Shown: one piece after another, positions 4,349 through 39,191 of the stretch
How the letters are laid out: each line of letters starts with the position of its first letter
Numbering within the stretch: the stretch's first letter is position 1
Position numbers and translations under genes: made by a program
Assembly (NCBI RefSeq): GCF_016405985.1
Contig: NZ_JAEFCF010000047.1
Location: 1-42,003, forward strand
DNA: 42,003 bases
Direction: 5' to 3'
From: Paracoccus sp. IB05
GTDB lineage: Bacteria; Pseudomonadota; Alphaproteobacteria; Rhodobacterales; Rhodobacteraceae
The notes under the pieces: model-generated
Databases searched by the model: none
Told to the model about the DNA's origin: nothing
Seen by the model: only the letters and a program-made list of their open reading frames with translations

Positions 4349-4362
4349 GGGATTCCCTTTCA

Positions 4363-9991: not shown

Positions 9992-9995
9992 GGCT

Positions 9996-10205: not shown

Positions 10206-10209
10206 CACA

Positions 10210-12868: not shown

Positions 12869-12880
12869 GGATCTTACCCC

Positions 12881-21970: not shown

Positions 21971-24250
21971 ATGATCTTCGTAGATCGTGGCGCTGTTCCA
22001 AATCCACTTCTAGATTCGCCCCTTGCTGCTCAAGCAGCGCGCGAGCTTGAAAGGGCGCGGGCGGTAATATCCACTGGCTCACTCCAGCGTCGGGTTGAAT
22101 TTTCGGCTTATAAACACCCGACGATCAAGGCCGCGCTAAATGTTCTTTTCCACGAGAAATGCGCCTATTGCGAAACCCCATTGGTCAGTGCGATGGGCGA
22201 CATCGAGCAGTTCCGACCGAAATCCGGAGTATCCGAAGCTAACGGTCATCCCGGTTATTGGTGGCTCGCCGTAACGTGGGAAAACCTTTTAATCGCTTGT
22301 CAGTACTGCAATCGCTTGGCGAAGGCGGAAATAGGTGAGGGTGGTCGCTCCGAGTCGATCGGCAAAGCGAACCGATTTCCACTCCTCGACGAAAATAAGC
22401 GAGCTCGCGAGCCTGACGATGATATCAACCTCGAACAGCCCTTACTGCTCGATCCCACGCTTGATAACCCGTCCCCGCACCTGACCTTTGCAGAAGATGG
22501 CCAAGTCTTCAGTGAAACGGAACGAGGGAATGCGACCATCTCGATCTTGGGCCTTAATCGGCTCAGTCTTCTTCAGCAGCGACGTGGCACTGCGGCGCGA
22601 TATCGTTCTCTCTTCGCCTACGCGCTTTCGTCGTTGTCCAGCGGCGACGGCGAGGCATCCAGGCTCGTCCGAGAGTTGATTGAGATGACTTCGAGCAGTG
22701 CGCCCTACGCGGGTATGGTGCGCCAGTTCCTGCAACGCGATCGAGCGCAGTTGGAGACGAAGCAGGTTGTCATCCCTATCCCGAGCTCTGTGGACCAAGG
22801 GTCTTTGGCAGCGACGTCTATGAGGGTGAAGCGTGCGGTTCGATCGACCAACGCGTTTCGTCAGCGAATGGCCAACTACTCGCTAGCCGACGATGAGGGC
22901 GTCCGCAAATATAAGTCACAGCGACGCGCAATCGAGACAATTGCAATCCGGAACGTACGTGCGATCAGTAGCTTCGACATAAACTTGCAGGCCCTCGGCA
23001 CGGGGGCTGGTAGGTGGCTCATGCTGCTTGGTGAGAACGGCACGGGTAAAAGCACGGTACTTCAAGCAATTGCATTGGTGCTTGGTGGATCTGAATATGT
23101 CTCGAAACTTATCAAAGAAAATCGAATGTCCATCAGCGACCTCGTTCGGTTTCGATGCCGTTCCGGTGAGGTCGCCGTTAAGCTGAGTGGCTTTGATGTT
23201 CCTCACCGCCTCAGAATATTTAGAGATCGTCTGGAATTCATTAGTCCAGGGAAGAAAGTTGTTACCATCACTGCTGATGGAGAGATCGCCGGAGCCAGCG
23301 GAGCACCTCAGACCGTCATCGCTGGATATGGAGCGATCCGCCTGCCATCGCGACGTCAAAATGACGTCGCATTCGGCGGTGAATTCTCTAGGCTGGAAAA
23401 CCTCTTTGACCCATTCGCCCCGTTGATAGATGCACAACGTTGGCTGAACGGACTCAGCCGAAAAGATTTCGATCATACAGCCATTGTTCTCAAGGACTTA
23501 CTCTCGATCGATGTCGAAGCGAAGCTCGTAAGAAGCAAGGGGCGGGTCGCAGTGCACACATCCGGGGCAACGGTGTCCCTTGCCAATCTCAGCGTTGGCT
23601 ATCAAACTGTAGTCGCGCTGGCTGCGGACATACTCGAAATCCTCTCGCGAGTTTGGCCGAACCGAATGGACGCCGAAGGCATAGTGCTGATCGACGAACT
23701 CGACGCCCATCTTCATCCCACGTGGCAGATGCAGATCGTTAGTTCACTGCGTCGGGCCCTGCCGTTCGTTCAATTCATCAGTACCACCCACCAGCCACTT
23801 TGCCTGCGCGGCCTCTATGAAGGTGAGGTCGTGGTCATGCACCGCCGTCAGAATCATCAGATCGAAGTGATTACCGATTTACCGTCTCCAGCCGACTTTA
23901 GGGTCGACCAACTCCTGACCTCGTCCTTCTTCGGTCTGAGTTCCACCGTCGACCCCAACACAGAACGGCTCTTTGATCGCTACTATGCGCTGCTGGCCTT
24001 AGACGTGCGCACCGACACCGAAAAGGCAGAGCTTGCCCAACTCACCTCCGACCTAGCGACACGAAAACAATTCGGGTCCACGCTTAGAGAAGGGCTCTAC
24101 CTTGAAGCAATTGATCAAGTTTTGGCACGGAGAAAGGTAATGCCAGAGATCTCGACCGAAGAGGTACGAGAGGAAGCGGTTAATGAAATCTCAGCGATCT
24201 GGCACCGCCTCACTTCGGACGTCGTATCAAGCGGTGGAGGCACGGCTTGA
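21971..24250 (+). CDS. HNH-AAA ATPase fusion, Septu/PtuA-like defence protein
   Basis: A 759-aa protein. Residues ~60-200 are a TIGR02646/PtuB-type HNH domain: CAYC (C64, C67), DIEQFRPK and LIACQYCNR. Residues ~330-640 are an SMC/RecF-like ATPase: Walker A GENGTGKST (354-362), signature-like NLSVGYQ, Walker B GIVLIDELDAHLHP (Asp575-Glu576) and H-loop STTHQP. In the HNH domain, the position usually holding the catalytic His is Gln80, whereas the next gene keeps His there; the fused nuclease may be inactive or a DNA-binding module. Start: ATG at 21971; a TTG upstream adds 19 residues without homology. The stop overlaps the next gene by 4 bases. In Septu, PtuA is the ATPase and PtuB the nuclease; here one HNH is fused to the ATPase and a second stands alone. 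Confidence 0.75.
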   Translation: MIFVDRGAVPNPLLDSPLAAQAARELERARAVISTGSLQRRVEFSAYKHPTIKAALNVLFHEKCAYCETPLVSAMGDIEQFRPKSGVSEANGHPGYWWLAVTWENLLIACQYCNRLAKAEIGEGGRSESIGKANRFPLLDENKRAREPDDDINLEQPLLLDPTLDNPSPHLTFAEDGQVFSETERGNATISILGLNRLSLLQQRRGTAARYRSLFAYALSSLSSGDGEASRLVRELIEMTSSSAPYAGMVRQFLQRDRAQLETKQVVIPIPSSVDQGSLAATSMRVKRAVRSTNAFRQRMANYSLADDEGVRKYKSQRRAIETIAIRNVRAISSFDINLQALGTGAGRWLMLLGENGTGKSTVLQAIALVLGGSEYVSKLIKENRMSISDLVRFRCRSGEVAVKLSGFDVPHRLRIFRDRLEFISPGKKVVTITADGEIAGASGAPQTVIAGYGAIRLPSRRQNDVAFGGEFSRLENLFDPFAPLIDAQRWLNGLSRKDFDHTAIVLKDLLSIDVEAKLVRSKGRVAVHTSGATVSLANLSVGYQTVVALAADILEILSRVWPNRMDAEGIVLIDELDAHLHPTWQMQIVSSLRRALPFVQFISTTHQPLCLRGLYEGEVVVMHRRQNHQIEVITDLPSPADFRVDQLLTSSFFGLSSTVDPNTERLFDRYYALLALDVRTDTEKAELAQLTSDLATRKQFGSTLREGLYLEAIDQVLARRKVMPEISTEEVREEAVNEISAIWHRLTSDVVSSGGGTA

Positions 24251-25242
24251 TTTCGATAGAGCGAACAACCGACGCTGCGGCATTGGCCTGTTACGCCGTT
24301 GCCACCGTCTACGACCTCGGCGGCGCGGCGAAGGTTACGCGTCACGAGCGTGAGCGCGAATTGGCTATCCAGTTCTTCACAAACCCAGCGAACTATTTCA
24401 ACAATCAAAAGCTGGCCTCTAAATCGTTTGCGTTCAAGGTCTACAAGGACAAGGAGCTGGCTAAGGTACTGTCCCGCGAATTCTGCAAGAAATGCGCCTA
24501 CTGTGAAAGCAAGTTCGCCGCCGTCACCGCGAGTGACATCGAACACTATCGACCGAAGTCTTCGGTCGGCCTCGGCGCGACAGAGTTAAAACCGGGCTAC
24601 TACTGGCTTGGAGGTGATTGGGACAACCTTCTTATTTCATGTCCGGACTGCAATCGCGTTCGTACCCATGAAGTGCCAGGGCAGAGCAAGGGAATCGTTC
24701 TAGGCAAGGGCACTCAGTTCCCGCTTACTGACGAAACTAGGCGCGTACGTAGCCACAATCAAAATATCTCGACCGAGGATGATGCTCGCCTATTGCTCAA
24801 TCCTTGCATCGACAAACCTGAGGATCATCTGACCTTCGACGAGACCGGTTTGGTTCATGCTATTTGTAATGGCGTCGCGAGTCAAAAAGGCAAAATTTCT
24901 ATCGACGTGTATGCTTTGCAACGCAAAGATCTCGTTGAGGCTAGGCTAGATGAAGTTAACGAGCTTCGATCGAAAGTCGAAGACCTTCAAAGGTTGGTGC
25001 GCCAACACAATACCTTGAGTTCGCTGGGGAGCGCGACCTATCATGCCCGGGCAGACAATCTCGATCACATCGCGAAAGTTCTCAATGGGATCAAGGCAAT
25101 GATGTTGCCATCGGCAGAATATGTCGCAGCCAAGCGGTCATGGCTGCGCGTCGCGCAACAGCGCGGTGAGTTCGACACGATTCGGAAGTTTGGCATCAAG
25201 CTCGAAGTCTTCCAGAGCCTCGCGGCCCAACCCACAGCGTGA
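24247..25242 (+). CDS. HNH nuclease, PtuB-like
   Basis: A 331-aa HNH endonuclease of the TIGR02646/PtuB type: CAYC (C83, C86), DIEHYRPK with the catalytic His100, YYWLGGDWDNLLISCPDCNR (C132, C135, N136), and a helical C-terminal half (VNELRSKVEDLQRLVRQHN). It should be the active DNase of the pair, cutting host or phage DNA when the ATPase partner is triggered. TTG start at 24247 with GGTGGAGG seven bases upstream, overlapping the ATPase stop (TTGA), so expression is translationally coupled. The C-terminal ~110 residues may contact the ATPase. Confidence 0.78.
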   Translation: MISIERTTDAAALACYAVATVYDLGGAAKVTRHERERELAIQFFTNPANYFNNQKLASKSFAFKVYKDKELAKVLSREFCKKCAYCESKFAAVTASDIEHYRPKSSVGLGATELKPGYYWLGGDWDNLLISCPDCNRVRTHEVPGQSKGIVLGKGTQFPLTDETRRVRSHNQNISTEDDARLLLNPCIDKPEDHLTFDETGLVHAICNGVASQKGKISIDVYALQRKDLVEARLDEVNELRSKVEDLQRLVRQHNTLSSLGSATYHARADNLDHIAKVLNGIKAMMLPSAEYVAAKRSWLRVAQQRGEFDTIRKFGIKLEVFQSLAAQPTA

Positions 25243-25258
25243 ACGTTGGGCACCCCAT

Positions 25259-25306
25259 CCAATGACGTGAGACTCGGCGAGCCGATGGCAACACGTCAGT
25301 CATTGG
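25259..25306. repeat. Imperfect inverted repeat before the methylase gene
   Basis: CCAATGACGTG (25259-25269) and CACGTCAGTCATTGG (25292-25306) are inverted copies differing by a 4-base insertion. The repeat lies in the 188-base gap between the HNH pair and the methylase operon, where a terminator for the first unit or an operator for the second would be expected. Confidence 0.35.
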
Positions 25307-25430
25307 CTGAGTTGCCTGCAGGGTGAAGAATTTTCTTGAACACATGAAGCATTCTGTATCTGAAGCACCCTAGGAACTCAAATAACGTTCAAAGTACTTT
25401 TGCCGACTAACTCATCATCCTATAGTTGCC

Positions 25431-27077
25431 ATGTATTGCGTTATGGCAAGGCTTAGGCGAGCGATGAATTTGGGCGACTGGGGGTCAAAAGCTACGTTGC
25501 TTGCGCATGCACGAGCCGCTGCGCGTATGCTCGCGGAGGTCGCCTCCAGCGCTCAATCGCGCGCAGACATCTGTCTCGGCATGCTCTATCATACCGACGA
25601 GGATCTTTGCCGAAGCAAATTCCAGCGCATGCTGCAGGCACTGCCCATCGACGAGCGGCACTACTGGATCGGAACACTGTATACGCTTCTGCTTCCAACA
25701 AAGCTACGCCGCTCCCAGGCGACCTACTTCACTCCGCCAACTGTCGCCGACGCCGTCGTAGACTTATCTATTAAGGCGGGCTTTGACCTTGGAGCGGACA
25801 CCGTGCTTGACCCAGCGGCCGGTGGCGCAGCCTTCTTGTCTACTATTGCAGGTCGTATGGTGAATGCCGGACTGAATGCAGAGGAGGTCGCCTACCGCCT
25901 GAACGGCATCGAGATCGATACCGGGCTGTCAGCGCTCTCCAACTGCCTCATCGCCCAGAGACTGGGCAAGCCTCTCCCCCGTGAAGTAATCATCACAGGC
26001 GACGCACTGAAGGTGACGATTCCCGGCTCCTACGGCCTTGTGATCGCTAACCCGCCGTATGGCCGTGTCGCGCTAGAAGACGTGCAAGATAAGGCTTGGC
26101 GCAAAGTTGCCCACAGTGGCCATATAAACAAGTACGCCCTGTTCACAGAGCTCTGCTTCAGACAGGCAAGGCCCGGCGGCATTGTCGCGCTTGTGATACC
26201 GTCCAGTTTCCGAGCAGGCCCTCTCTACGACCGAATGCGTGCCTTTATTCGTTCTCAAGCCGAGGTGCTCGCGGTCGGATCAATCGCCGGGCGGGATGGG
26301 GTATTCATCGACGTAGCGCAAGACATCAGTGTTCTGATCGCCCGTAAAGGCAAGGTTCACGTCGCTAGTGCACCCGTCAGCTTCCACATCGTGGGCCTTG
26401 TGCCATCGACCAGCCAAGCGATTAAGCAGCTGTTGCCCGCAGAGCAAGGTGGTGCCTGGCCACTGCCAGCTATCGATCCAGCGCTTATCGGTGGCGCTAC
26501 ACTGGCCGATTACGGTGTGACCGTTCGCGCGGGATACTTCGTTTGGAATCGGGAAAAGGCGCGGCTCTTTAGCAAGCTCCAGAGCAAGCAGCATTGTTAC
26601 CCACTCATCTGGGCGCAAAATATAAAAGCGGGAGAACTCTGTAGGCCAGCGGGCAAGAAAGGCCAGGGTGTTGACTTCGTTTCTTTCCCTAGTAGCAGCA
26701 CTGCGATCATCATGGGCGTCGCGGCCGTGATGCAGCGAACCACAAACGACAAGCAGCCACGCAGGCTTGTTGCTGCTATGGTCGATCCATCCGTAATTTC
26801 CGCATGGGGAGGCTTCGTGAGTGAGAACCACACTATCGTGTTAACCTGTGAGGACCCCAACAGACTCGCTCTCGCAGTGCGCCTTCTAAATACCACTGCT
26901 GTTGATCAGCGCTACCGTCGTGTCTCGGGAACAGCTGCAGTGTCAGTGACTTTGCTGAGGCAGCTCGATCTTCCCTCGCCGACCGCCTTCGCTGCCGCCC
27001 TCGCCGTGAGCAATGACGATGCAGAGGCCGCCGCCGCTGCGGCATACCGGTCCACCCAAGAGGCGATTGACGCCTAA
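25431..27077 (+). CDS. N6-adenine DNA methyltransferase (DISARM-type operon)
   Basis: A 548-aa class I-type DNA methylase. SAM-binding motif I is DPAAGGAAFL (from residue 127) and catalytic motif IV is NPPYGR (207-212), the N6-adenine/N4-cytosine signature; the arrangement suits N6-adenine. QATYFTPPTVADAVVDL upstream is typical of Eco57I/HsdM-like enzymes. The C-terminal ~180 residues (FVWNREKARLF, SENHTIVL) resemble target-recognition regions. It would mark host DNA and spare it from the neighbouring helicase/nuclease functions, matching the drmMI role in class 1 DISARM. ATG at 25431 is chosen, and another at 25443 is possible. Its stop overlaps the next ATG by one base. Confidence 0.82.
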   Translation: MYCVMARLRRAMNLGDWGSKATLLAHARAAARMLAEVASSAQSRADICLGMLYHTDEDLCRSKFQRMLQALPIDERHYWIGTLYTLLLPTKLRRSQATYFTPPTVADAVVDLSIKAGFDLGADTVLDPAAGGAAFLSTIAGRMVNAGLNAEEVAYRLNGIEIDTGLSALSNCLIAQRLGKPLPREVIITGDALKVTIPGSYGLVIANPPYGRVALEDVQDKAWRKVAHSGHINKYALFTELCFRQARPGGIVALVIPSSFRAGPLYDRMRAFIRSQAEVLAVGSIAGRDGVFIDVAQDISVLIARKGKVHVASAPVSFHIVGLVPSTSQAIKQLLPAEQGGAWPLPAIDPALIGGATLADYGVTVRAGYFVWNREKARLFSKLQSKQHCYPLIWAQNIKAGELCRPAGKKGQGVDFVSFPSSSTAIIMGVAAVMQRTTNDKQPRRLVAAMVDPSVISAWGGFVSENHTIVLTCEDPNRLALAVRLLNTTAVDQRYRRVSGTAAVSVTLLRQLDLPSPTAFAAALAVSNDDAEAAAAAAYRSTQEAIDA

Positions 27078-29827
27078 TGGCACGCAACCCTTCATTCCCG
27101 AAACCGCTTAGGGCAGATTTGGACGACCGCGCCGAGCAACGTCGCGCGGCTTTGGATAAGAGACAGTCGTTGCTCTCGAAGATGGCAAAAGCCAGTTCGG
27201 ACCGAGCGGAAGTCACGTCCGCTATGCAAAGTAAGCAAGCGATACCAAAGCGCACAAGGCGCGACGTCGAGCGCTATATGGCAGCCCTGGCTGCTCAGCC
27301 GTTCCACCAACTCGGCCAATCCGACACGGCGGTATTAACTCCATCATACGCTCTTCTGGTGCGATCCGCCGCCGAGGTTGCATCAGACGGATCAGTTCAG
27401 GTCGTTATGCCATGGCCACCGGTCAAGGTTTCGCCTTCAGCGATCACCGGACTGCTCACGATAGCTGCGATTGGTAGCGCGGAAGTGAAGCAGTTCATCA
27501 TCCAAGGTGCCACCGAGACAGGTCGCCGCCGATCCGACGAAGTGCGAGCACTCGTGTTCCCCTACGCGCGAGGCAGTCATGCCCAGGCCCGACAGGTTCA
27601 GGTTGACCGGAAAGTACTCGGCACCGTCAACTTTGAGCATGTTAAGCGATACGTCAAAGGCGGTGACGACGCCGCCAAGGACTTCCATCAGGTTCTCGCC
27701 CGGGTCCGCAACCTTACAGGGCGCGCGTCCGACGGTCGTGAATACGCCGAGTTCGAACACCCGATCCTTGACGAGATTGTGCCGCATGGCTCGCCACGCG
27801 GTGAGCGCTCGGCTAATAGCAAACTCCTCTGGAGGACGCGCTCGAAGACTGACATTGTCAAGCAGAGCAGATCGGGCGACGCTGACGACCCGTCGAAGGC
27901 CGACTTTTTCCTGTACACGCTTCGTGTTGGCGACCAGATCAGCGCCGATCTGCGGGCTATTAAGCGAAGTCCCGATCTGCTTATCCTCGACCTCACACGA
28001 AATGCTCGCACCCGGTTAGGCTGGAATTGGGTGGACAAATCGACCGAATTTGTTGCCTCCCTGCGCGAGGTCCACCCTATGACAGGTATCCTCGCCATCG
28101 CCGACGATCCCTGGACCTACCGCACCGCGCGGTTCGATGTCCTGGGCACTCGGAAGCCAGGGCGAGGCGGCAAGGTGATACCAGCGATCGGCCACGTTGC
28201 TTATTCCGAGGTGGCTAACATCGTCAGCCCCGTGGCAGCCGAGGCTCCCTCGTTCGAAGGAGCCGATTGCATTGATGTCGACGGCTTCTTCGGTGAAGTC
28301 GACCAAAACATCGAGACCCTTCGGCGCCTGGCGAACAGCCTCGACGACAAGGGTGACCTTAAGGGAGCGATCGTCGTGCGCAACCTAGTCGCGACGGTTC
28401 GCCGCACAGCCTCTCTGCCGGGCTCGCTCGCTGAGTTGAGCAGATTTCTGGAACAGGAGACATCAACCGCAGCAGCCAACGATCTGCTTGCGATCTACCG
28501 TGTTACAGCCGATCTCGCAACCTTGGAGGATCCGCGCGGCCTTGCCAATCAGGTCGACGCCGAGACCGGCGCGCTGGCGACCACGCGCGAATTGATGCGC
28601 AACTTCGGCAGCGCCACACCGATGACCACGCTACTCGAGGCGGCGATATTGCCCGCGCTCAGGTCCAGCTCGAAATCCGTGTTCGTGTTCAGGTCGGAAC
28701 TGGTCGCAGAGTTTGCAGTTAACCGGCTTGGTATCTCCCATCCTAAACTGGCCGCGCGGCTCGAATCCGGGTTCATTCGCTTCGGAGGTGAACGGACACT
28801 CAGAGGCGTGGCTGACCTGCCACGGGTTGCGCGTAACCAGTTCAAGCGGGTCGTGCTCGTGGCGCCGACGCGGACCTCTATCCTGACGACACTTACCCAG
28901 CCGTGGCTTCCGGAGCACGTAACCGTTCTTGCCGACGCCGACACCCTCGCATTCGCCGCGCGCGACGCCGGGCGTCTCGCGGACGAAATCGACATCGCGC
29001 CATTGGCAGTCCGGCTGCGAATGTTTGCAAGAAAAGCTAATGAGCGGGTGGAGGAGATCGGTCGGCACGTCGTGCGGTTCGAAATGCCGCCGGACGACGT
29101 CGAATTCCCCAATGGCTCAGTGGTTGACCTGAGCGGCGGCAAGGGCGAACGAAACCTCGTCGAAATCGAATTAAAGAACGGCCAGCGCATTATTGCTCGC
29201 CGCAGCACCGAGATTGTGTTGCGCGACGACGGCGCGGCGACGACCTCGTTCGTCGAGCGTCCGGCATCGCAAGTAAAGGTGGGCGACGAGGTTTGCGTCA
29301 TAGGCCACGGCTTCATTGAGCGGGCACGCACGTTGGTGAACATCCGCGCAACCGCCGCGGAGGAGATCCGCGACTACCACCAGTTGGTGTCCGATCGCTT
29401 CGCTGCGATGCCTGAGCCGACGACGATAGGGAAGCTGCGGTCACTTGTTGCCACGATGGGCGAACCCGCAGTGGCGCCCGAAACCGCGCGATACTGGATC
29501 GACCTCGGCGAAGAGATCGAAAAACCTCTGCACGACGTCGTTCCGCACGCGCCGCAGGATCAGGACACGTTCATGCGCTTCACCGCCGCCCTCGGCATCA
29601 GCGAACGCATGGCTGGCAACTTCTGGAGGTGGGCGGTGGTCGCGCAGCGGTCTCACCGCATCCGTTACGGAAACGTCTTCCACGATGCCTTTCGCGGAAT
29701 TCTCACCGATCCGCACGCGGCCATAAGCAGCAATCGCGATCGGGTCGACCAAATCCGCATGTTAAGGTCTATGGCGGAAGAGCATGTTGCTATCGTTGAC
29801 AAGGTTCGGAGCTTTACGGCGCGATGA
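27077..29827 (+). CDS. 916-aa defence-operon protein of unknown fold, candidate DrmE
   Basis: A 916-aa cytoplasmic protein. No Walker, PD-(D/E)xK, HKD or zinc motif is evident. The N-terminal ~80 residues are basic and helical. The middle (about 150-420) alternates beta strands and helices. The region about 530-680 (SVFVFRSELVAEFAVNRL, FKRVVLVAPTRTSILTTL) looks like a degenerate helicase-like Rossmann lobe without motor motifs. About 690-760 is beta-rich and ends SQVKVGDEVCVIG, followed by a helical C-terminus (YWIDLGEEIEKPL, MAGNFWRWAVVAQR). The position before drmA/drmB-like genes and the size suggest a DrmE-like part of DISARM, but I cannot confirm homology by eye. It overlaps the downstream helicase gene by ATGA. 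Confidence 0.5.
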   Translation: MARNPSFPKPLRADLDDRAEQRRAALDKRQSLLSKMAKASSDRAEVTSAMQSKQAIPKRTRRDVERYMAALAAQPFHQLGQSDTAVLTPSYALLVRSAAEVASDGSVQVVMPWPPVKVSPSAITGLLTIAAIGSAEVKQFIIQGATETGRRRSDEVRALVFPYARGSHAQARQVQVDRKVLGTVNFEHVKRYVKGGDDAAKDFHQVLARVRNLTGRASDGREYAEFEHPILDEIVPHGSPRGERSANSKLLWRTRSKTDIVKQSRSGDADDPSKADFFLYTLRVGDQISADLRAIKRSPDLLILDLTRNARTRLGWNWVDKSTEFVASLREVHPMTGILAIADDPWTYRTARFDVLGTRKPGRGGKVIPAIGHVAYSEVANIVSPVAAEAPSFEGADCIDVDGFFGEVDQNIETLRRLANSLDDKGDLKGAIVVRNLVATVRRTASLPGSLAELSRFLEQETSTAAANDLLAIYRVTADLATLEDPRGLANQVDAETGALATTRELMRNFGSATPMTTLLEAAILPALRSSSKSVFVFRSELVAEFAVNRLGISHPKLAARLESGFIRFGGERTLRGVADLPRVARNQFKRVVLVAPTRTSILTTLTQPWLPEHVTVLADADTLAFAARDAGRLADEIDIAPLAVRLRMFARKANERVEEIGRHVVRFEMPPDDVEFPNGSVVDLSGGKGERNLVEIELKNGQRIIARRSTEIVLRDDGAATTSFVERPASQVKVGDEVCVIGHGFIERARTLVNIRATAAEEIRDYHQLVSDRFAAMPEPTTIGKLRSLVATMGEPAVAPETARYWIDLGEEIEKPLHDVVPHAPQDQDTFMRFTAALGISERMAGNFWRWAVVAQRSHRIRYGNVFHDAFRGILTDPHAAISSNRDRVDQIRMLRSMAEEHVAIVDKVRSFTAR

Positions 29828-32800
29828 AGGGAAAGTCGAACAGCGAGCTAACGGCGATTGACGTCGAACTAAAGGAAGCCGTCTGCGACGCGCTGACATA
29901 TTCGCTGGTGCAGCGCGTCACCGGTGCGGACGAGCGCGGCCGCAACTTGCTCGGTAGTTCGCCTCGCAGGGGCATTTTCGCCAGCCAGCTCCTCCCGCGC
30001 TTCGACACGTCGGGACAGGATGATGAGACGACAGACATCCGCATCGCGGCGGTGGGCATTGACTTGATTGCGGTGGCTGGCGGAGGTGGGCCGATACGCG
30101 TCACGCCCCGGTTCTCGGTCTATCTCCGAGTGATCCCCGACTGGCTGGACCTTGCGCCCCACGGCGAACTCGAGTTCGACTTCCGCCTGCAGAGGAACAT
30201 CCAGCAGCAGATCGACGATGCGATCCGGGCAGAGCGCGTGCCCGCGCTGCGAGCGGCGGGCGTCGAAAAGCCTGACTGGAAGGCGATGGACGAGACCAAG
30301 CGTTCCAAAGTCAGAGCGACGCGAGCACAGATCCTCACCGAAGTCCGGCGCAAAGCATACGCCGCACACGGCATCAAGCTAGTCTCTGGCGATGCAGATC
30401 CGGACGATGCGGCAAAGGTGTCGAGAGATACGTCCGACATAGATCCGAACACGCCTGACGACATCAAGCCAGCGGTACTGCCCATCCCGCGTCTGCTTCG
30501 CGATCAGCGAGAGCTTCCGCTCCACCTCGTCGATCCAGCGCCAATCCCGGGGAAGTGGACACGGCTGGACCTCGAAATGCCAACCCTCGAGTTCAACTAT
30601 GATGCGCCCGACGAAGACCTCAAATCTGCAGTCGAAACGTATAACCGTGCCTTAAGCGGCTCGGTTGCCGCGCAAATCGAAGCTTGGGTCAACGGGCCTG
30701 GCGCCTCCACGGCATGGCGGGAGGTGACAGTCCAACCCAGCGAAACGCTGACGGAAGAGAAATGGCGTGCAGCAATGGCTGCGATCGCCACCCGCCCGGT
30801 GGATCGCAACCGGGTCGTACCCGACCTCTCGCGCGTCGTAGTCAAAGTCGAGCGCCAGACCGACTTCCTCAACCCGAGCGCTCTATCGATGCGCATCACA
30901 CTCGACAATCAGTCGCTTGAGCAGTCGCCAATCGACGCGCGCGGCCGCTGCAACACGGTCTTCGATGCCGGCCTTACAATCGAGCTGCCATCGGCTGCGC
31001 ACCGCCCACTGCGCCTCGACCGCGTCGAGCCATCCTATCGTTTCCGCGAGCACCTCGACTATCCGGCTATAGGCCTCAACTGCGGAGTCGAGGCCCATTG
31101 CGAGGGAGCGAACTTGCACCTGCGCACGACGTGCGCGCCCCGCTTCGCCCAGCCGCGGATCGTCGCGCGCAAGCTCGACCTGCCCTATCAGTTTGCCGTC
31201 TTGAAGGATCCAGATTTCGATGCATCTAGGCTGCTCGAACTGCCTTGTGAGTACAGGCAGTGGATCGACGGTCAGGAAGCGAGGCTCCGGGATACGGTCA
31301 CGGCCGGGCTGGAACCCGCCGACGCGGCGATCGAGGCCGAACGCCTGCGCAAGGACATCGCGGCACAACGCGACGAGGCGCGCTACATTGAGCGTGGCGT
31401 CGAACTGCTGATCGCGTCCAAGAAGGCAGCGGACGCGCTTGCCGCCTGTGGTGGCGGGGATAACCAAGCCCTCGAGCGGCGTGCCGCGCCTTGGCGAGCT
31501 TGGACCATGGCGAACGAGGCCTTTGCGTCGCGCGATGTCTCCGACCCCGGCCGGGGATGGCGCCTGTTCCAGATGGCTTTCATACTCGCCCACGTGCCGG
31601 TGTTCGCTTCGAGGATGGACGAGTGGCGCGAAACGCACGACCCTCGACTCGACGAGGAAGGCGTCAGCCTTCTCTACTTCCCGACCGGCGGTGGCAAGTC
31701 TGAAGCGTTCTACGGAACACTGCTCTTCGCGATGTTCCTCGACCGGCTGCGTGGCAAGGACCGCGGCATCACCGCGATGATCCGGTATCCCCTGCGGCTG
31801 CTAACCCTCCAGCAGGCCCAGCGGCTCCTGAAACTTATTGCCAGGGCGGAATTGGTCCGCAAGCGTCACAGCGTCGGCTCATGGCCGTTCGAGATGGGCT
31901 TCTGGGTCGGCAGCCAGAACACGCCGAATAACTACGGGGCCTTCAAATCGGACATCCCGCTTACTACCGATCATGACCATCCGGACGACAGTGGCCTCGA
32001 TGGCGAGACCGGCGATGACCAGGAGCGAGATCGCGGCCGGCGCTACCTTGTCGCCCGCGAGGCGTACGATAAGATCCCGGACTGTCCGGTCTGCGGCAAA
32101 CCAACCGGCCTCAGACGCGACGAGACCGATGGTCAGTACGGCAGGCGCGCCGCGATCCTCTGCTTCAACGACGATTGCGATTGGAACAAGGAGCATGGTG
32201 GTCGCCACCCACTGCCATTCCTCCTCACGGATGACGCCGTCTACGCGCGCGCGCCATCGATAGTGCTGGGCACCGTAGATAAGCTGGCAATGCTAGGGCA
32301 AAACACCAGCACAATCAGCAAGGTGCTTGGCATGTTTGGCCTGGCAAGGCGCGTCGATCACCGCGGCAACCTCAGCAACCCGCGCAGCGAGGCGGACCTC
32401 AAACGCGATCCCGCCCTTGACCGCTGCGCCAATGTCTACCCCGCGTACGCGAGCGGCAGGCACATCTTTCACGACCCCTTCCCATCGCTTATCATTCAGG
32501 ACGAGGCGCATCTGCTGGAAGAGAGCCTCGGCACGTTCAGCGGCTTGTTCGACACTTTACTCGACACGATGCTAGAGGACATCGCCGACATGGCGGGCGA
32601 CGCACTGGGCGTTGCTCGACGCTGGACCGGCGTCGGTTGGGGTCCGCCCCGAATGCCGAAGATCATCGCGGCGACCGCCACTATCTCAGCACCCGAACGG
32701 CAGTTGGAGACGCTTTACCAACGCATCCCCCTGCGCTTCCCTTACCCCGGACCTGACCTCTACCACTCCTTTTTCGCCGAGCCAGCCGCGCCACCGGAAG

Positions 32801-34158
32801 AGAATGAGGACCGTGTCACTCTCGCCAAGTCGCTCCCATTCGCGCAGGTTCCAGAGGCGACCGCGCCGTGGATGCGCCTCTACGTTTCGCTGTTGACGAA
32901 CGACGCTACCCACACCGTCACGACGGTTGGAGTCCTCGCCGCCTTCCACGGCATCGTCACATCTCTGTGGGACGGCATGCTGGACGGCGCGCAGCGGGTT
33001 CAGACGATCGCCGCAATCCGAGCATCGGTCCCGCCAGGTCGCGCGGGCGACTGGCACCGTGCCGCCATCGATCGCGCCGTCGAGCAGGGTCGTGATGCGG
33101 AGATCATGGCGCTCGTGGACCTGCATCGCATCGCCCTCGCGTACGTTACGAATAAGAAGGGCGGCGACCAAGTCATCGACGCGCTGAGCGCAGCGGTCGA
33201 AAAGGAGCACCGCCGTATCGGCCGCGCCCATATCGCTTTCGACAGCCGCCTTATCTCCGGCGGCATTGACATGAAGGATATACAGGCGGTGATGGAGGCC
33301 GCCGACAGGTCGTTCGTTGGAGCCGACTATCCGGATGTGGCCGAGACCGTGCGCAACATCGTGGCGACGTCGGCGATCAGCCACGGCGTCGATGTCGACC
33401 GCTTCAACAGCATGTTCTTTGCCGGTCTTCCCTCTGACATTGCCGAGTACATCCAGGCATCCAGCCGCGTCGGCCGCACCCATGTCGGCTTCGTCATGCT
33501 GCTGCCCACGCCACAGAACCGACGCGACCGCTATGTGGTCGAGACTCATGACATCTTCCACCGCTTCCTTGAACGCATGATCGCGCCGCCGGCGGTTGAG
33601 AGATGGGCGGAAAACGCGATCAAGCGGACGATGGCTTCGTATGTCCAAGCCTGGGCGATGCTGCGCGAGGCACGCGAGTTCATCGGCAAGGATGACGCCC
33701 GTAAGTTCGAGGAGGCACACATGGACCAAGTCAGCCGGCTGGCAGCCCTGGAAAAGCGCGACCACCTCCGTTTCACAAAGGAACTCGTCTCTTTCATACT
33801 CCGAGCGAGCGGTTTCGCCGGAAAAGGTGCTTTGCACCTCGGGGCGCCGTACTACGAGGAATTCTATCGCGGGCTCGTCGACAATCAGGTCGAGAGGTTC
33901 GCGCGGCACATTTCCGGTCTAGCCACGATATCGAGCCTACGTGACTACTGGGGCGACGTCCCGGTCTTCAAGCCTCCGATGACGTCGTTGCGCGACGTCG
34001 ACGAAGCCGGTTACATCGTCGCTGCGATGCGCGACCCGCTCGCGCGCGGCAGGTCATCGGACGTCGACCGCCGCGACCTGGCTAAAGTGATGAAAGCTAT
34101 AAGGACCCAGCGCGGCAGTGCCTCGGAGCTGGACGCGGATGGGGGAAAAGATGGCTGA
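29824..34158 (+). CDS. drmA: DrmA-like SF2 helicase
   Basis: A 1444-aa helicase. The N-terminal ~600 residues are unassigned. Walker A is FPTGGGKSEAF (PTGGGKS, 620-626), motif Ia IRYPLRLLTLQQAQRL, Walker B DEAH (893-896), motif III AATATIS (near 950), and motifs V-VI SHGVDVDRFNSMFFAGLPSD and QASSRVGR (1211-1218). A zinc-binding insert lies between the lobes: C754, C757, C780, C785 (CPVCG and CFNDDCDW). This layout is that of DISARM DrmA, which loads on phage DNA with DrmB and hinders its entry or replication. Translationally coupled on both sides (ATGA with the upstream gene, 8-base overlap downstream). Confidence 0.8.
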   Translation: MKGKSNSELTAIDVELKEAVCDALTYSLVQRVTGADERGRNLLGSSPRRGIFASQLLPRFDTSGQDDETTDIRIAAVGIDLIAVAGGGGPIRVTPRFSVYLRVIPDWLDLAPHGELEFDFRLQRNIQQQIDDAIRAERVPALRAAGVEKPDWKAMDETKRSKVRATRAQILTEVRRKAYAAHGIKLVSGDADPDDAAKVSRDTSDIDPNTPDDIKPAVLPIPRLLRDQRELPLHLVDPAPIPGKWTRLDLEMPTLEFNYDAPDEDLKSAVETYNRALSGSVAAQIEAWVNGPGASTAWREVTVQPSETLTEEKWRAAMAAIATRPVDRNRVVPDLSRVVVKVERQTDFLNPSALSMRITLDNQSLEQSPIDARGRCNTVFDAGLTIELPSAAHRPLRLDRVEPSYRFREHLDYPAIGLNCGVEAHCEGANLHLRTTCAPRFAQPRIVARKLDLPYQFAVLKDPDFDASRLLELPCEYRQWIDGQEARLRDTVTAGLEPADAAIEAERLRKDIAAQRDEARYIERGVELLIASKKAADALAACGGGDNQALERRAAPWRAWTMANEAFASRDVSDPGRGWRLFQMAFILAHVPVFASRMDEWRETHDPRLDEEGVSLLYFPTGGGKSEAFYGTLLFAMFLDRLRGKDRGITAMIRYPLRLLTLQQAQRLLKLIARAELVRKRHSVGSWPFEMGFWVGSQNTPNNYGAFKSDIPLTTDHDHPDDSGLDGETGDDQERDRGRRYLVAREAYDKIPDCPVCGKPTGLRRDETDGQYGRRAAILCFNDDCDWNKEHGGRHPLPFLLTDDAVYARAPSIVLGTVDKLAMLGQNTSTISKVLGMFGLARRVDHRGNLSNPRSEADLKRDPALDRCANVYPAYASGRHIFHDPFPSLIIQDEAHLLEESLGTFSGLFDTLLDTMLEDIADMAGDALGVARRWTGVGWGPPRMPKIIAATATISAPERQLETLYQRIPLRFPYPGPDLYHSFFAEPAAPPEENEDRVTLAKSLPFAQVPEATAPWMRLYVSLLTNDATHTVTTVGVLAAFHGIVTSLWDGMLDGAQRVQTIAAIRASVPPGRAGDWHRAAIDRAVEQGRDAEIMALVDLHRIALAYVTNKKGGDQVIDALSAAVEKEHRRIGRAHIAFDSRLISGGIDMKDIQAVMEAADRSFVGADYPDVAETVRNIVATSAISHGVDVDRFNSMFFAGLPSDIAEYIQASSRVGRTHVGFVMLLPTPQNRRDRYVVETHDIFHRFLERMIAPPAVERWAENAIKRTMASYVQAWAMLREAREFIGKDDARKFEEAHMDQVSRLAALEKRDHLRFTKELVSFILRASGFAGKGALHLGAPYYEEFYRGLVDNQVERFARHISGLATISSLRDYWGDVPVFKPPMTSLRDVDEAGYIVAAMRDPLARGRSSDVDRRDLAKVMKAIRTQRGSASELDADGGKDG

Positions 34159-36394
34159 TACAGGCAAGAAAGACTGGCGCGCCCCTTCCGTCCGAAGACC
34201 CTCATCGTTCGGCGTCGGCCACGCCGACCCCGATCCGCTGGAGCCGCCCACGATGTTGCGCTCGCGGGTCCAGATCGCCGGCTCTTACGCGCCGGGCGTG
34301 CTGATGACATGGGAGGGCGGCAAGGGCATTTGTCGCTCCGTTCCCCTCGCCAACGAGGCGAAGGACCTCAACCCGACGACTGTCGATCTGATCTTCGAGA
34401 ATCTGAGCCACGCAGTGACCACCTGGCGCAATCGCGTGATGAAAGTGCTGCCCGACGCACTGCCGGAACTCGTCCTCGACACCCCGTTCCGAGACTCGAA
34501 AACCGGCGAGGCGCGGGTGCAGCGCGCCGACTTCCAGATGACGAGCCCTGACAAGGTCGGCTACGTACCCTATCCGCTCCTGTACCGCTGCGGGATATGC
34601 GGATCGACCCGCGAGTTCGACAGCGTCGCCGATCAGGCGCGACAGCCACTACCCAGGAAGTGCAATGGCCACGAGGCCCGTTGGACGCAGGTTGACGTGG
34701 TCTACGCCCACTGGTCGGGCGACATCGAGCCGCTCAGCCCCTTCAACTACAACTTTGACTCGCAGACCGGTACCGCCAAGCAGATCAGGATGTGTACCTG
34801 CGGATCGTCGAGTTTCAAGCTGCGCAACACAGCACCTGTGTTCTCCGAATGGCGCTACGTCTGTGAGGGTTGCGGCGAGACAAGGTCGCTCAAGAAAGCC
34901 AACCCCGATGTGCTTACGCGTCTCCAGATCCAGCAGAACGAGGGCGGCCGCCAGTTCCAGTGGATCGAAGTCAACATGCTACCGGTTTCATACCGGGCAA
35001 ACTCGACCTTCTATGTTCAGCGGACCAGCTTCATTGTGTTCAAAGACAGCGCAGTGGTCGAACTAATGAGCCCCAGACGCCGCGACGGGCTGATCGCCCG
35101 GCTCGCCCAGATTCACGAAATCTCATTCGCCGAGCCGTCCGGCGATCAGATCCGCAAGAGCGTCGAGGCCGACCAAACGCGTGCAGGCGAGTGGGACGAG
35201 TACGAAACCTACCTTGATATGGCGGAGAAGGCGGAAGGTTCCGGGCGCGCCGACGCGGCGCGCCGGCACCGCGACAACGCGAGCTCGCTGCGCGAGGGCT
35301 GGTTCGCTAATGGTATCGTCGAGCGCGGCCAGCTCGGCAGCCAAGCGATCCTGCAGGCGATCGCGATGCGAGAGGACTGGACGCAACGTTACGACCCCGT
35401 CCGGCTGACGATCCAGCACGACGCATTCGTGCGTGAGCATATCGAGCAGGCGATGACGGAGCACAAAGCGGTCAACGTCATGTCCCCGGACGTCGTACTC
35501 ACGGATGTGGTCAACGATCCGGCGCGCAAGGTGAAGTACCAAGAGACCATTGGGAGGCTGCTCGGCCATCTTGGCGTCGATCGCCTAGTACTGATCCGCG
35601 GCCTTCCGATCTGCGAATTTAGCTTCGGCTATACGAGGGTCTCGGCCACTCCGATCTACCAGCGCGAGCATAACGGTCAGCGTGTCGAGATGCCGGTCCG
35701 GCTGAAGGCGTTCGACCAACTGCCTATCCCCGACAACAAGCGGCCGATCTACGTCACGCAACAGCTCAACGAGGCGCTATACTTCAAACTCGACGAGGGC
35801 CGAGTCCTGCGCTGGCTTGAGGCCAATCAGGTCGTCGACGTGCCCCGCGAACACGTCGGCCGCGCCTACCTAGAGCGCTACGATGACTTCGGGCCTTTCC
35901 TTGAAGTGTTCAAGGATCGCGAGGGCATGGGTGGTTACCCGCGCACCCTCCCAGCCTACATCTACCTGCTGCTGCACACATTGTCGCACCAGATGATGCA
36001 CTCGCTCGCGGACACATCGGGCGTGGACAGGGATGGTATCGGGGAACACATCTTCCCCGCCGACCTCTCTTTCGTCATCTACCGCAAAGGAATGACGCCC
36101 GACTTGGGGAACATCTCCGCGATGTGGCGCAACTCCGCAGAGGCGTTTTTAAAGCGGGCTCTCGACCCGAGAACGCTGCGCTGCGGATCGGGTAGCCTGT
36201 GTGATATCCGCGGCGGCGCGTGCCCGGCATGCGTAATGGTGTCCGAAGTTAGCTGTATCGCATCTAACCTGCTGCTGTCGCGGGCCGCGCTGAAGGGCGG
36301 TAGAGGCCCGGAATGGGAACCGCGGACCGCTCCAAATCTTATAGGCTTTTTCGATACCTCGCATCAGTCATCAACATCTAATCCCAACGCGTGA
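34151..36394 (+). CDS. drmB: DrmB-like protein (DUF1998)
   Basis: A 747-aa protein with cysteine clusters YRCGICGS, the KCNGHEARW region, MCTCGSS and CEGCGETR (likely zinc sites in the first ~260 residues). The C-terminal DUF1998 domain has YLLLHTLSHQMMHSLAD, FPADLSFVIYRKGMTPDLGN and a final CDIRGGACPACVMVSEVSC cluster. DrmB pairs with DrmA in DISARM to form the core DNA-binding complex. The ATG at 34151 directly follows GGGGGAAAAG and lies inside the end of drmA; the frame to 34118 is a read-back. No drmC gene (phospholipase D-like) follows. Confidence 0.82.
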   Translation: MADTGKKDWRAPSVRRPSSFGVGHADPDPLEPPTMLRSRVQIAGSYAPGVLMTWEGGKGICRSVPLANEAKDLNPTTVDLIFENLSHAVTTWRNRVMKVLPDALPELVLDTPFRDSKTGEARVQRADFQMTSPDKVGYVPYPLLYRCGICGSTREFDSVADQARQPLPRKCNGHEARWTQVDVVYAHWSGDIEPLSPFNYNFDSQTGTAKQIRMCTCGSSSFKLRNTAPVFSEWRYVCEGCGETRSLKKANPDVLTRLQIQQNEGGRQFQWIEVNMLPVSYRANSTFYVQRTSFIVFKDSAVVELMSPRRRDGLIARLAQIHEISFAEPSGDQIRKSVEADQTRAGEWDEYETYLDMAEKAEGSGRADAARRHRDNASSLREGWFANGIVERGQLGSQAILQAIAMREDWTQRYDPVRLTIQHDAFVREHIEQAMTEHKAVNVMSPDVVLTDVVNDPARKVKYQETIGRLLGHLGVDRLVLIRGLPICEFSFGYTRVSATPIYQREHNGQRVEMPVRLKAFDQLPIPDNKRPIYVTQQLNEALYFKLDEGRVLRWLEANQVVDVPREHVGRAYLERYDDFGPFLEVFKDREGMGGYPRTLPAYIYLLLHTLSHQMMHSLADTSGVDRDGIGEHIFPADLSFVIYRKGMTPDLGNISAMWRNSAEAFLKRALDPRTLRCGSGSLCDIRGGACPACVMVSEVSCIASNLLLSRAALKGGRGPEWEPRTAPNLIGFFDTSHQSSTSNPNA

Positions 36395-36665
36395 TCGATT
36401 GGAGGGAACACGGGGCTCAGGCCATCGGCTACAACCCGATTGCTTCCGACATAATCGAGGCCGTTTTCCATCGAAGTTGAAGGAGGAACGCCTCCTCATG
36501 CAGTAAAGTTGCTTTCAATCACTCAAACGACTCGCTTACATCCTCGGCTTCAATTTGCCATAGTCGCGAGGTTAGGTTGCGACCATCGTTGGACACGGAA
36601 GCGAAAACCTGCTATCGTTCCCCTTACGTTCACATAGGAGCGGAGGCCGCCTGAGACGGAGAGTA
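36395..36665. other. Gap between drmB-like and DprA-like genes
   Basis: No gene seen. A perfect 6-bp hairpin, AGGAGG-AACG-CCTCCT (36481-36496), occurs here and masks a Shine-Dalgarno-like AGGAGG in front of the tiny frame ATG-CAG-TAA. This could be a minor regulatory element or chance. The DprA-like gene probably has its own promoter in this gap. Confidence 0.3.
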
Positions 36666-37577
36666 ATGACACAACTGGATTTCGGTGCGCTAGATTTCGC
36701 AGCACGGGCTGTTTCGCCGTTCTTGGAGCTTGGGGCATATGAAGCCCTTTGGGACCAAGACAATGCCAGCTTCAAGACCATCGCCGCACGATTCGCTAGG
36801 GTGCCGGGAGCGCTCCCGTCCGATTTCATCGCCCCGGCTCAATCGACGGAGTACGCAAACGCGGTGCATCGCGCCCTCGTTGGAGCAGGTGTTCGGCATT
36901 ATGGCGTACGTGTACATGGCGCCGGAGAGTACCCTGATCGCCTGCGGGATGCAGAGCATCCGATTGAACTGCTCTACTATCAGGGCTGGTGGGAACTGGT
37001 GAATTCGCCCAGATCCGTCGCGATTGTCGGAACGCGCAATCCCTCCGAAGACGGGATCCGGCGCACCCGCAAACTAGTGCGTTCTCTGCTAGCCGATGAC
37101 TTCACCATCGTGTCCGGACTGGCGAAGGGCGTGGACGCAGCCGCGCACACGGCTGCGATCAGCGAGGGCGGCCGCACCATTGCGGTTCTCGGTACTCCAA
37201 TTTCACAGACATACCCGAAAGAGAACGCAGCGCTTCAAAGGGAAATCGCAACCAATCATCTGCTGATCAGCCAGGTTCCCGTGACGCGTTATGAGCGCGC
37301 ACCGAACCCGACCGCGAACCGACATTTCTTCCCCGCACGCAACGTCACCATGTCCGCACTAACCGATGCGACGGTGATCGTGGAAGCCGGTGAAACTTCC
37401 GGAACGCTGGTGCAAGCCCGCGCAGCACTGAAACAAGGACGCAGACTCTTCATTTTAGATAGCTGCTTCCGCAATCCGAAGCTGACCTGGCCACACACTT
37501 ACGAAGAGCGCGGCGCGATCCGCGTCCGGGATTACGATGACATCCGACAACAGCTCATACCCGGAAAGACTCACTAA
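36666..37577 (+). CDS. DprA-like Rossmann-fold protein
   Basis: A 303-aa protein with the DprA/Smf (SLOG superfamily) core: YPDRLRDAEHPIELLYYQG, VAIVGTRNPSEDG (near 120-130), IVSGLAKGVDAAAHTAA, AVLGTPISQTYPKEN, FPARNVTMSALTDATVIVEAGETSGT and ALKQGRRLFILDS. The usual C-terminal winged-helix of DprA is missing, and the N-terminal ~85 residues are not a clear SAM domain. Canonical DprA loads RecA on incoming single-stranded DNA; SLOG proteins in defence loci can instead sense or make nucleotide ligands. Start: ATG at 36666 behind GGAGA. The gene runs into a phosphoribosyltransferase, an unusual pairing, and adjoins the DISARM-like operon, which suggests a defence role over competence. Confidence 0.75.
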   Translation: MTQLDFGALDFAARAVSPFLELGAYEALWDQDNASFKTIAARFARVPGALPSDFIAPAQSTEYANAVHRALVGAGVRHYGVRVHGAGEYPDRLRDAEHPIELLYYQGWWELVNSPRSVAIVGTRNPSEDGIRRTRKLVRSLLADDFTIVSGLAKGVDAAAHTAAISEGGRTIAVLGTPISQTYPKENAALQREIATNHLLISQVPVTRYERAPNPTANRHFFPARNVTMSALTDATVIVEAGETSGTLVQARAALKQGRRLFILDSCFRNPKLTWPHTYEERGAIRVRDYDDIRQQLIPGKTH

Positions 37578-38220
37578 GGTCGACGCGCTGACGCGCGGCG
37601 ATCACTCCTACCTACACGAAGAAGACAACTGCCTCTTCCTCGGCGAGTACACCGCGCGCAAAGGGTTCTCCTACAGTGCAACCAACAATCTGATCATCAA
37701 TTTCAAAAAACCGATGGATCGCCAAGGACGCCCAGAATGGTCCCACAAGGCGCGTAACATCCGCAAAGCCGCCGCAGCGCTTCACAAGGCCTTCGGAAAC
37801 ACCGATCTGCGGCGTTACACCTTCGTACCGGTCCCCCCTTCGAAGGCCAGCACCGATCCGATGTACGATAATAGAATGATGGAAATGCTGGCCCATCTGA
37901 GTGCCCATGTACGGCGTTCACACGGCTACGACATCGATATCCGGGAACTGGTCAGCCAGACCCAAAGCACGGCTGCTGCGCATGATACGGATGCGCGACC
38001 CACACCCGCTGAGTTGGTCGCACTTTACCGGCTCGAGCAAGGTGCGCTCGCCGGAGTCCGTGAGGGGATATTGATCTGTGATGACGTCCTCACCACCGGC
38101 TGTCACTTTCGGGCGATGGAGGAAGTACTGTCCGCAGCGCTGCCAGGACGCCCCTGCTACGGCGTGTTTCTCGCCAGGCGCGTTCCCGAGGCAATCGATA
38201 TCGAAGACGTCGATTGGTGA
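37537..38220 (+). CDS. Phosphoribosyltransferase-fold protein paired with DprA-like gene
   Basis: A 227-aa protein with a type I PRTase core: VPVPPSK segment (as in ComF), then the PRPP-binding loop ILICDDVLTTGCHF (residues 178-191) with the paired acidic residues and TTG. A hood-like N-terminus with Tyr and Arg residues (GEYTARKGFSYSATNNLIINF) precedes it. The expected chemistry is transfer or hydrolysis of ribose-5-phosphate, or a PRPP/nucleotide-binding role. No substrate can be named. The ATG at 37537 lies 41 bases inside the end of the DprA-like gene, so the two are made together. A competence ComF-type origin is the other reading, but no other competence gene is here. Confidence 0.7.
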   Translation: MTSDNSSYPERLTKVDALTRGDHSYLHEEDNCLFLGEYTARKGFSYSATNNLIINFKKPMDRQGRPEWSHKARNIRKAAAALHKAFGNTDLRRYTFVPVPPSKASTDPMYDNRMMEMLAHLSAHVRRSHGYDIDIRELVSQTQSTAAAHDTDARPTPAELVALYRLEQGALAGVREGILICDDVLTTGCHFRAMEEVLSAALPGRPCYGVFLARRVPEAIDIEDVDW

Positions 38221-38309
38221 GTAAGGCACTCACACCTTCCTCAGCATGTTAAAGGCCCCTTCATCCTGAATCTGAACACGCTTTAGCCAGTCCGCATGCG
38301 TTCCAGCAG

Positions 38310-39191
38310 CTATCGGAAGCGTACCTCCCAGCTTTCCCTCAGGCTCTCCTCTTCATCGTCGACTTCATCCGGATCGTCCTGAAGTTGCTCGCTGGAAAGC
38401 ACCGTTAGCGTAAGACCATAGCTCCCCAAGCCTATGATCTCCTCGTCAAGAGCCCGGCTCGCGGCCCCCTCGAACCAGCGCCTCAAACTCGCTGGCGCGC
38501 AATGTCGCCTACCCTGAGCAATATTTCCCGAATCCACATTGAATGCCCGCGTTGCGGTGTCAGGCAGCGATGTCCCTTTGCGTAAGTAGTGCACACCCGG
38601 AAGCGCCTTAAAGCTATCGGGCATGAAACTATACGAGATCTCGGCTCCGCGGCTAACTATAACGGCCATAGGGTACGGAGCGCACTCCGCCGCCCTGATC
38701 GCCGCCGCCGTAAGCGATGCTTGCGCCTCCCGGGCAAGGGTCTCTATACCTTGCAAGCCGACAGGAGAACCCAGTAGCACTTCGCGCACATGGGTCGTGG
38801 GCATCAACAGACCTGATGCAAAATGATCGGCTTCCAACTCGATAGAGCTCGAACCCTCGGTGAAGCCTGCTCGAGAAACATGCGTTCCAGAGGATTTCTG
38901 TATCTCCTCCGGGTGCCCTTCAAGGAAATAATGACCCAGCTCATGTGCAACCGTGAACCGACGGAAGCCTTCGCTCCTGATGTGTGTGGAGTAAATAATC
39001 CCAACGCTGTCGCCCTGAAAAATGATGCAACCGCTCATGCCTGGCTGCCCAGCATCATTGCCTTGGACGAGAATATCTGACGCTTCGGCGATTTTGAACG
39101 GATCCACGGGAAGCGAGAAGAATCCAAACTCTTTGGCCACAGCTTCGCCTCGCTGCCTGGCCTGCCGCAGGCGAAACTTCGGCAATGTCAT
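38310..39191 (-). CDS. ImmA/IrrE-family metallopeptidase
   Basis: A 293-aa zinc peptidase with HELGHYF (H83, E84, H87) and the third ligand region ELEADHFASGLLMP (Glu120). The C-terminal ~150 residues are variable and end in an acidic tail (DDPDEVDDEEESLRE). ImmA-type enzymes cleave XRE repressors on a DNA-damage or phage signal and so switch on the genes they hold off. The gene overlaps the preceding XRE repressor by 4 bases, the usual pair arrangement. Confidence 0.88.
   Translation of the reverse strand: MTLPKFRLRQARQRGEAVAKEFGFFSLPVDPFKIAEASDILVQGNDAGQPGMSGCIIFQGDSVGIIYSTHIRSEGFRRFTVAHELGHYFLEGHPEEIQKSSGTHVSRAGFTEGSSSIELEADHFASGLLMPTTHVREVLLGSPVGLQGIETLAREAQASLTAAAIRAAECAPYPMAVIVSRGAEISYSFMPDSFKALPGVHYLRKGTSLPDTATRAFNVDSGNIAQGRRHCAPASLRRWFEGAASRALDEEIIGLGSYGLTLTVLSSEQLQDDPDEVDDEEESLRESWEVRFR

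Follow-up and report, generated by a model that had tools for sequence, protein, structure and literature searches.

Two classes of the DISARM defence system have been published. Class 1 consists of drmD, drmMI, drmA, drmB and drmC, and class 2 of drmE, drmA, drmB, drmC and the C5 methylase gene drmMII. The PADLOC rules, in the accessible part of their description (PMC9252829), require A, B, C, D and MI and forbid drmE for type I, and require A, B, C, E and MII for type II. ARMADA types I and II also combine a YprA-family helicase with an adenine methylase; as far as the available text of Bell et al. goes (PMC12458937), their methylase is PglX-like, a SNF2/BrxHII-like helicase is present, and DUF1998 and a Vsr nuclease are fused to a helicase. 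Here we describe an operon of Paracoccus sp. IB05 located on a 42,003-nucleotide stretch of contig NZ_JAEFCF010000047.1, referred to below as the window. Its four genes encode an N6-adenine methylase (M), a 916-residue protein (X), a DrmA-type helicase (A) and a DrmB-type protein (B). We consider it probable (roughly 70%) that this operon represents a third arrangement of DISARM, drmM(N6)-drmE-like-drmA-drmB-drmC, of which the present copy has lost drmC at the 3' end of drmB.

The combination of a drmE-like gene, drmA, drmB, drmC and a short N6 methylase gene fits neither published class, in agreement with the initial annotation, which had found the gene set unlike both. With class 2 it shares the order X/drmE-drmA-drmB-drmC, homologous DrmA and DrmB proteins and a profile-profile match between X and the C-terminal half of DrmE. 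It differs from class 2 by an N6 methylase (N6_Mtase/Eco57I) in place of the C5 enzyme DrmMII, by an X protein that no DrmE model matches, by a separate position of its DrmA (support 100/100 in an unrooted tree) and, in the window copy, by the lack of drmC. Class 1 likewise has an upstream adenine methylase, DrmA, DrmB and the phospholipase D-like (PLD) nuclease found in relatives of the operon, but in the window proteins scanned no SNF2 helicase DrmD was found, a probable relative of DrmE is present, and the methylase has 548 residues versus 1308 in the class 1 locus L038. Unlike in ARMADA, the helicase and DUF1998 genes are separate, and the scan of ten window proteins revealed no SNF2 gene. 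Bell et al. do not name this arrangement in the part of their paper available to us (PMC12458937). A literature search, judged by titles and abstract openings and with most subscription papers outside its coverage, returned no paper on a named third DISARM class or variant.

The four open reading frames of the initial annotation were recovered with their overlaps of 1 base (M/X), 4 bases (X/A) and 8 bases (A/B), the last with the drmB ATG at 34151. The mechanical list of reading frames offers a GTG at 34118 as an alternative drmB start, giving 758 residues and a 41-base overlap; drmA and drmB overlap by 8 bases in the relative L002 and by 14 in L003. The proposal that the operon is of DISARM type was also borne out, DrmA and DrmB being the best models for A and B (Table 1). 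Both proteins score under the curated cut-offs (369.9 bits against 950 for A with NF038325, 48.8 bits against 240 for B with DrmB_fam) and are thus diverged members of these families. The profile of B matches that of class 2 DrmB with a probability (Prob) of 100, and its cysteine region weakly matches the DrmB chain 7s9v_B (E 0.025). A retains intact Walker A (TGGGKS), DEAH and motif VI (QASSRVGR) sequences, and B an intact DUF1998 cysteine cluster, CGSGSLCDIRGGACPACVMVSEVSC. In M, motif I (LDPAAGGAAF) precedes NPPY (IANPPYGR), an order which we take to be that of the gamma group of methylases. The best 25 of the 40 PADLOC families matched by M do not include DrmMI, MTase_II being the top model, and the M profile matches three class 1 methylases weakly (1e-7 to 2e-9). 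All four proteins are 74-87% identical to their counterparts in L002, L007 and L008, without stop codons. The ratio of nonsynonymous to synonymous substitution rates (dN/dS) was 0.05-0.12 in 11 of 12 gene-by-relative comparisons, in which synonymous sites were close to saturated; for M against L008, the remaining comparison, saturation had been reached. The four overlapping genes are therefore real and intact rather than a chance assembly and, judged from these alignments, they are under purifying selection.

Table 1. Features of the operon and of its 3' flank (window coordinates).
Feature	Position	Strand	Basis
M: N6-adenine DNA methyltransferase, 548 aa (amino acids)	25431..27077	+	PADLOC MTase_II PDLC03338 E 3.6e-100; Pfam N6_Mtase 1.9e-9, Eco57I 1.9e-8; motifs
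X: 916-aa diverged DrmE-like protein (putative)	27077..29827	+	position before drmA; profile-profile match to DrmE
X residues 494-872, aligned to the DrmE C-terminal half (Pfam DrmE_C region included)	28556..29692	+	profile-profile; DrmE_C placed from L030
X residues 673-777, weak intein/Hint-like stretch	29093..29407	+	Pfam Intein_splicing E 0.075, below curated threshold
A: DrmA-type SF2 (YprA family) helicase, 1444 aa	29824..34158	+	NF038325 E 3e-110; PDB 7s9v DrmA E 3.9e-47
B: DrmB-type DUF1998 protein, 747 aa from ATG	34151..36394	+	DrmB_fam (NF038324) E 4.7e-13
Place of drmC in relatives	36356..36665	+	drmB C-termini compared; no PLD sequence before shosA at 36666

The comparison set consists of 12 distinct loci, the window included. 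Searching with X by tblastn gave four plasmid records and three genome-contig loci (one identical to the window), and sampled genomes were searched too. A DrmA search of plasmids returned 85 records, among whose full-length matches were the loci of Rhizobium johnstonii, Polaromonas and Afipia OM5 and, again, R. phaseoli; two further loci came from a sample of the phylum. Not counted as loci were L005 (same record as L010), L006, L025 and L026 (a Tabrizicola contig identical to the window), H12 (Afipia OM4, at the same coordinates as OM5) and two X-profile matches, G730 (E 8.7e-5) and a fragment with stops in G929:C21, whose retrieved stretches (L045 and L046) contained no DrmA or DrmB. The named hosts are alphaproteobacteria (Sphingomonas, Mesorhizobium, Sinorhizobium, two Rhizobium, Novosphingobium, Sphingobium and Afipia) and one betaproteobacterium (Polaromonas). 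Seven of the 12 loci lie on plasmid records, partly because a plasmid collection was searched.

Family profiles detected X, A and B in all 12 loci, B being split by IS66 elements in L004. Such matches hold by construction for the members of the profiles; L043 and L044 are independent of them (X at E 5.7e-111 and 3.1e-60). The N6 methylase occurs in 11 loci, upstream of X in ten and downstream of C in L009, and L010 has only a weak N6_Mtase reading frame on the opposite strand. In ten loci a DrmC-like PLD gene directly follows drmB. The full M-X-A-B-C block is found in L002, L003, L007, L008, L011, L012, L043 and L044, with L009 arranged as X-A-B-C-M and L010 as X-A-B-C. All seven PLD proteins tested (L043, L044 and L007 were outside that test) carry the HKD motif. 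Phmmer searches with single window proteins found A (E 8e-221 or better) and B (2e-101 or better) in L003, L004 and L009-L012. With X the matches were L003, L004, L009, L010 and L011, and with M they were L003, L004, L009, L011 and, weakly, L010; neither query matched L012. The arrangement marked by X is rare. It was found in one of 385 genomes of the class in a single-protein search (the Paracoccus genome itself), in two of 248 genomes of the family (the same genome and G503, the source of the Tabrizicola contig) and, by profile, in four of 398 genomes of the phylum, again counting the Paracoccus genome; the weak match in G730 was not upheld.

The initial annotation had regarded the lack of drmC as characteristic of the system and proposed to survey homologous loci for it. 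The survey gave the opposite result, since the gene is lacking only in the window and in the plasmid copy L004, damaged by insertion sequences (IS). A drmC in the set had been named as evidence against a new subtype; drmC does belong to the family, and it is absent from the window copy. The profile search of the four proteins came out as foreseen for A and B, which matched DrmA and DrmB models, and no DrmD or DrmC appeared among the PADLOC matches listed for ten proteins of 21914-39535 (for the methylase and both Septu proteins, the best 25), to which the search for DrmD in this genome was confined. The claim that no SNF2-type drmD stands beside the operon was thus upheld. For X, the same search gave no DrmE model match.

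Because the PLD gene follows drmB in ten of the 12 loci, we take its absence here as a probable local loss at the drmB 3' end rather than a feature of the system. B ceases to resemble its relatives about 12 codons upstream of the drmB stop; among the relatives, too, the final few codons vary. A search of the genome with one query, the PLD protein of L008, revealed no close PLD gene elsewhere (best E 0.957). A 29-codon frame overlapping the drmB stop was considered as a drmC remnant and rejected, as it is unlike the start of the relatives' PLD proteins. When 12 PLD proteins were searched against the window with tblastn, a single match fell below E 0.1 (0.013, one query, inside the methylase gene); it was taken as chance. 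A missing drmC also occurs in the class 1 loci L037 and L038, where drmB is followed by IS elements and by type I-E cas genes, respectively. In the window, a ShosA/ShosT pair (36666-38220; PADLOC E 2.3e-101 and 2.1e-43) occupies the place of the relatives' drmC.

Protein X itself has no match in PADLOC, DrmE model included, or in NCBIfam, and in Pfam only the sub-threshold Intein_splicing (Table 1). Searches of PDB profiles gave best E values of 0.2 and 1.5, and X alignments found no relatives in two scans of viral contigs. On plasmids, tblastn with Polaromonas X and two DrmE proteins returned their own records only, so that single-sequence searches cannot bring out the family. The DrmE set consisted of seven proteins encoded before drmA (L015, L016, L029, L030, L031, L033 and L035), all matching DrmE_C. 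Existing models recognize them unevenly: L015 and L016 match NCBIfam DrmE_fam below its cut-off, the PADLOC DrmE model detects L015 at 7.9e-4 and L016 not at all, and L030 is annotated as DrmE family. DrmE itself is thus very variable.

When ten X sequences were compared with these seven proteins, the profiles matched with Prob 96.6 and E 6.4e-10 over 350 columns; another aligner setting gave Prob 95.7 and E 8.7e-9. Among 21 family pairs, DrmA/DrmA and DrmB/DrmB reached 100 and X/DrmE 95.7, and the other 18 did not exceed 7.9. Subsets gave 91.3 when Hymenobacter was left out of the DrmE set, 88.2 when X was reduced to four divergent sequences and 83.8 when it was reduced to six close ones, always in overlapping C-terminal stretches, and the reversed DrmE profile scored 0.1 against X. 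Moreover, X lies directly upstream of drmA, like drmE in class 2 loci such as L030. The initial pairing of an N6 methylase with a candidate DrmE is thus supported: the comparison lends statistical support to homology of the C-terminal halves, and we conclude that X is likely a diverged DrmE, or at least has this half in common with it. A weak intein/Hint-like signal was seen at corresponding places in X and in the DrmE of L030 (residues 608-721), which does not imply splicing. At E values up to 1, Intein_splicing was detected in two of ten X proteins and one of seven DrmE proteins (E 0.068), all below the curated threshold, and the DrmE profile matched a Cdc21 intein chain at E 0.0022. DrmE may contain a degenerate Hint-type fold.

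The DrmA phylogeny (26 sequences, unrooted) splits the 12 family members from class 1 and class 2 with support 100/100. Class 1 with its relatives is equally firm (100/100), and class 2 is weak (79.7/73). Rooting with MrfA/YprA-type helicases failed, the outgroup branch being 4-5 substitutions per site long with low support at the join; the outgroup-free tree was used, with L032 (broken DrmA) left out. As the root is unplaced, these proteins could still be sister to class 2 DrmA. In L035 (Hymenobacter plasmid, 2678-9202), a DrmE_C protein precedes a DrmA that the tree puts on the class 1 side; a DrmE-type subunit may thus have existed before the classes separated. In L031 (Streptomyces cellulosae plasmid, 1543-12655), a DrmE-type DISARM lies beside an N6_N4_Mtase gene on the opposite strand, and not beside a C5 methylase gene.

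Several observations weigh against the assignment to a third arrangement. Afipia L012 is the weakest locus: its X was not matched by the first X profile (E 3.9) and was included by position, with a blastp match to Polaromonas X at E 4e-5, and its methylase, although an N6_Mtase/Eco57I protein, was missed by phmmer with M at 1e-3. This locus was counted on A, B, C and gene order. As regards X, 47 of 50 column shuffles of the whole DrmE profile remained at or below 5%, and three exceeded 98, in each case through 4-10 columns at the end of the profile, apparently an end artefact; the best of 50 shuffles of the N-terminal half alone scored 98.9. No match was obtained between X and DrmE in their N-terminal halves (Prob 0.5), and Pfam DrmE_C matches all seven proteins of the DrmE set, none of the ten X proteins and nothing in the Paracoccus genome. 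Finally, a copy without drmC might be inactive, and we know of no defence assay for any family member, no search by locus name having been made. The location of the operon among defence genes (Septu, ShosTA) speaks in favour of the assignment.

The locus could also belong to plain class 2 DISARM, its C5 methylase having been swapped for an N6 enzyme and its drmE having drifted, so that no separate class is warranted. The common drmE-drmA-drmB-drmC order and the X/DrmE match would fit, as would the variable methylase of DrmE-type loci such as L031 and the weak support of class 2 itself in the DrmA tree. Yet the 12 DrmA proteins separate from both classes at 100/100, with the root unplaced, and 11 of the 12 loci have a short N6 methylase. 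We regard this explanation as unlikely. We judge it similarly improbable that the four genes are the decaying remains of a system that is inactive without drmC. This would account for the absence of drmC from this copy and the IS-damaged L004 alone, and for the drmB similarity that breaks off within the last dozen codons. Against this, the four genes are full length with intact motifs and a dN/dS of about 0.1, a value shaped more by earlier history than by the period after drmC was lost. Moreover, DrmC is described as dispensable and often missing in the available part of PMC9142583.

That the operon belongs to a different kind of system, for instance ARMADA, Dpd, Druantia or simple restriction-modification, is very improbable. 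Several YprA-helicase systems exist besides DISARM, according to the accessible portion of Bell et al. (PMC12458937), A weakly matches the PADLOC DpdF (1.8e-4) and DruE (2.2e-4) models, and the methylase alone resembles a type II enzyme. However, DrmA and DrmB are by far the best models; separate helicase and DUF1998 genes are, in the same portion of that source, a consistent trait of DISARM only; and neither a SNF2 helicase nor a deazaguanine gene was found in the ten scanned proteins, nor a Vsr domain match in A.

If the operon is a DISARM of the third arrangement, as we favour, it probably acts as a methylation-sparing, DNA-structure-triggered DrmAB helicase with a dispensable nuclease. Serratia DrmAB is autoinhibited until it loads on unmethylated 5'-overhang DNA, as stated in the part of PMC9142583 available. 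By analogy, M would mark host DNA. A split YprA-type helicase made of DrmA and DrmB would load where incoming phage or plasmid DNA offers unmarked ends or single-stranded regions and, by translocating, block replication. X would be a third subunit, probably in target recognition or holding or in complex assembly. The PLD nuclease would be an optional effector, and in this cell the system would work without it or with another nuclease. We infer self-marking by M, the choice of substrate, the role of X and the activity of the four-gene form from such parallels. More tentatively, and with odds clearly below even, the family may represent a third DISARM class built on a separate and ancient DrmA lineage. 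A DrmE-type subunit with a distinct N-terminal half of about 490 residues would there act as target sensor alongside an adenine mark, and the window copy would show the nuclease to be expendable, the helicase complex alone being the weapon.

Since the set meets neither the type I nor the type II rule of PADLOC as given in the accessible part of PMC9252829, systems of this kind are probably missed by those two definitions. The arrangement suggests that the DrmE-type subunit is not tied to cytosine methylation. The diverged X sequences are material for working out DrmE function, and the natural five-gene and four-gene versions form a test set for the need of the PLD nuclease.

The operon is flanked by other defence genes detected with PADLOC: Septu (21914-25242), ShosTA and CapP/CapH (38310-39535). 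In the Septu pair, residues 20-283 of the 778-residue PtuA match the PtuB profile (E 3.3e-66) and a separate PtuB with an HNH match follows; PtuA possibly carries a second HNH-like domain. No CBASS gene was seen among the proteins scanned beside the CapP/CapH-like protease-repressor pair. The same contig carries trb-type conjugation genes at 2910-14160 (TrbL, TrbI, TrbE-like and transglycosylases). Positions 1-38307 of the window are 100% identical (38,307 bases) to a contig of Tabrizicola sp. SY72 (L025/L026), whose genome is placed in another genus, with 73% identity at one other locus compared. This stretch thus reflects either a recent transfer or cross-contamination of one assembly. Finally, DUF1403 genes lie near both this operon (40886-41800) and that of L003 (22987-24024), and are perhaps a shared marker of a mobile island.

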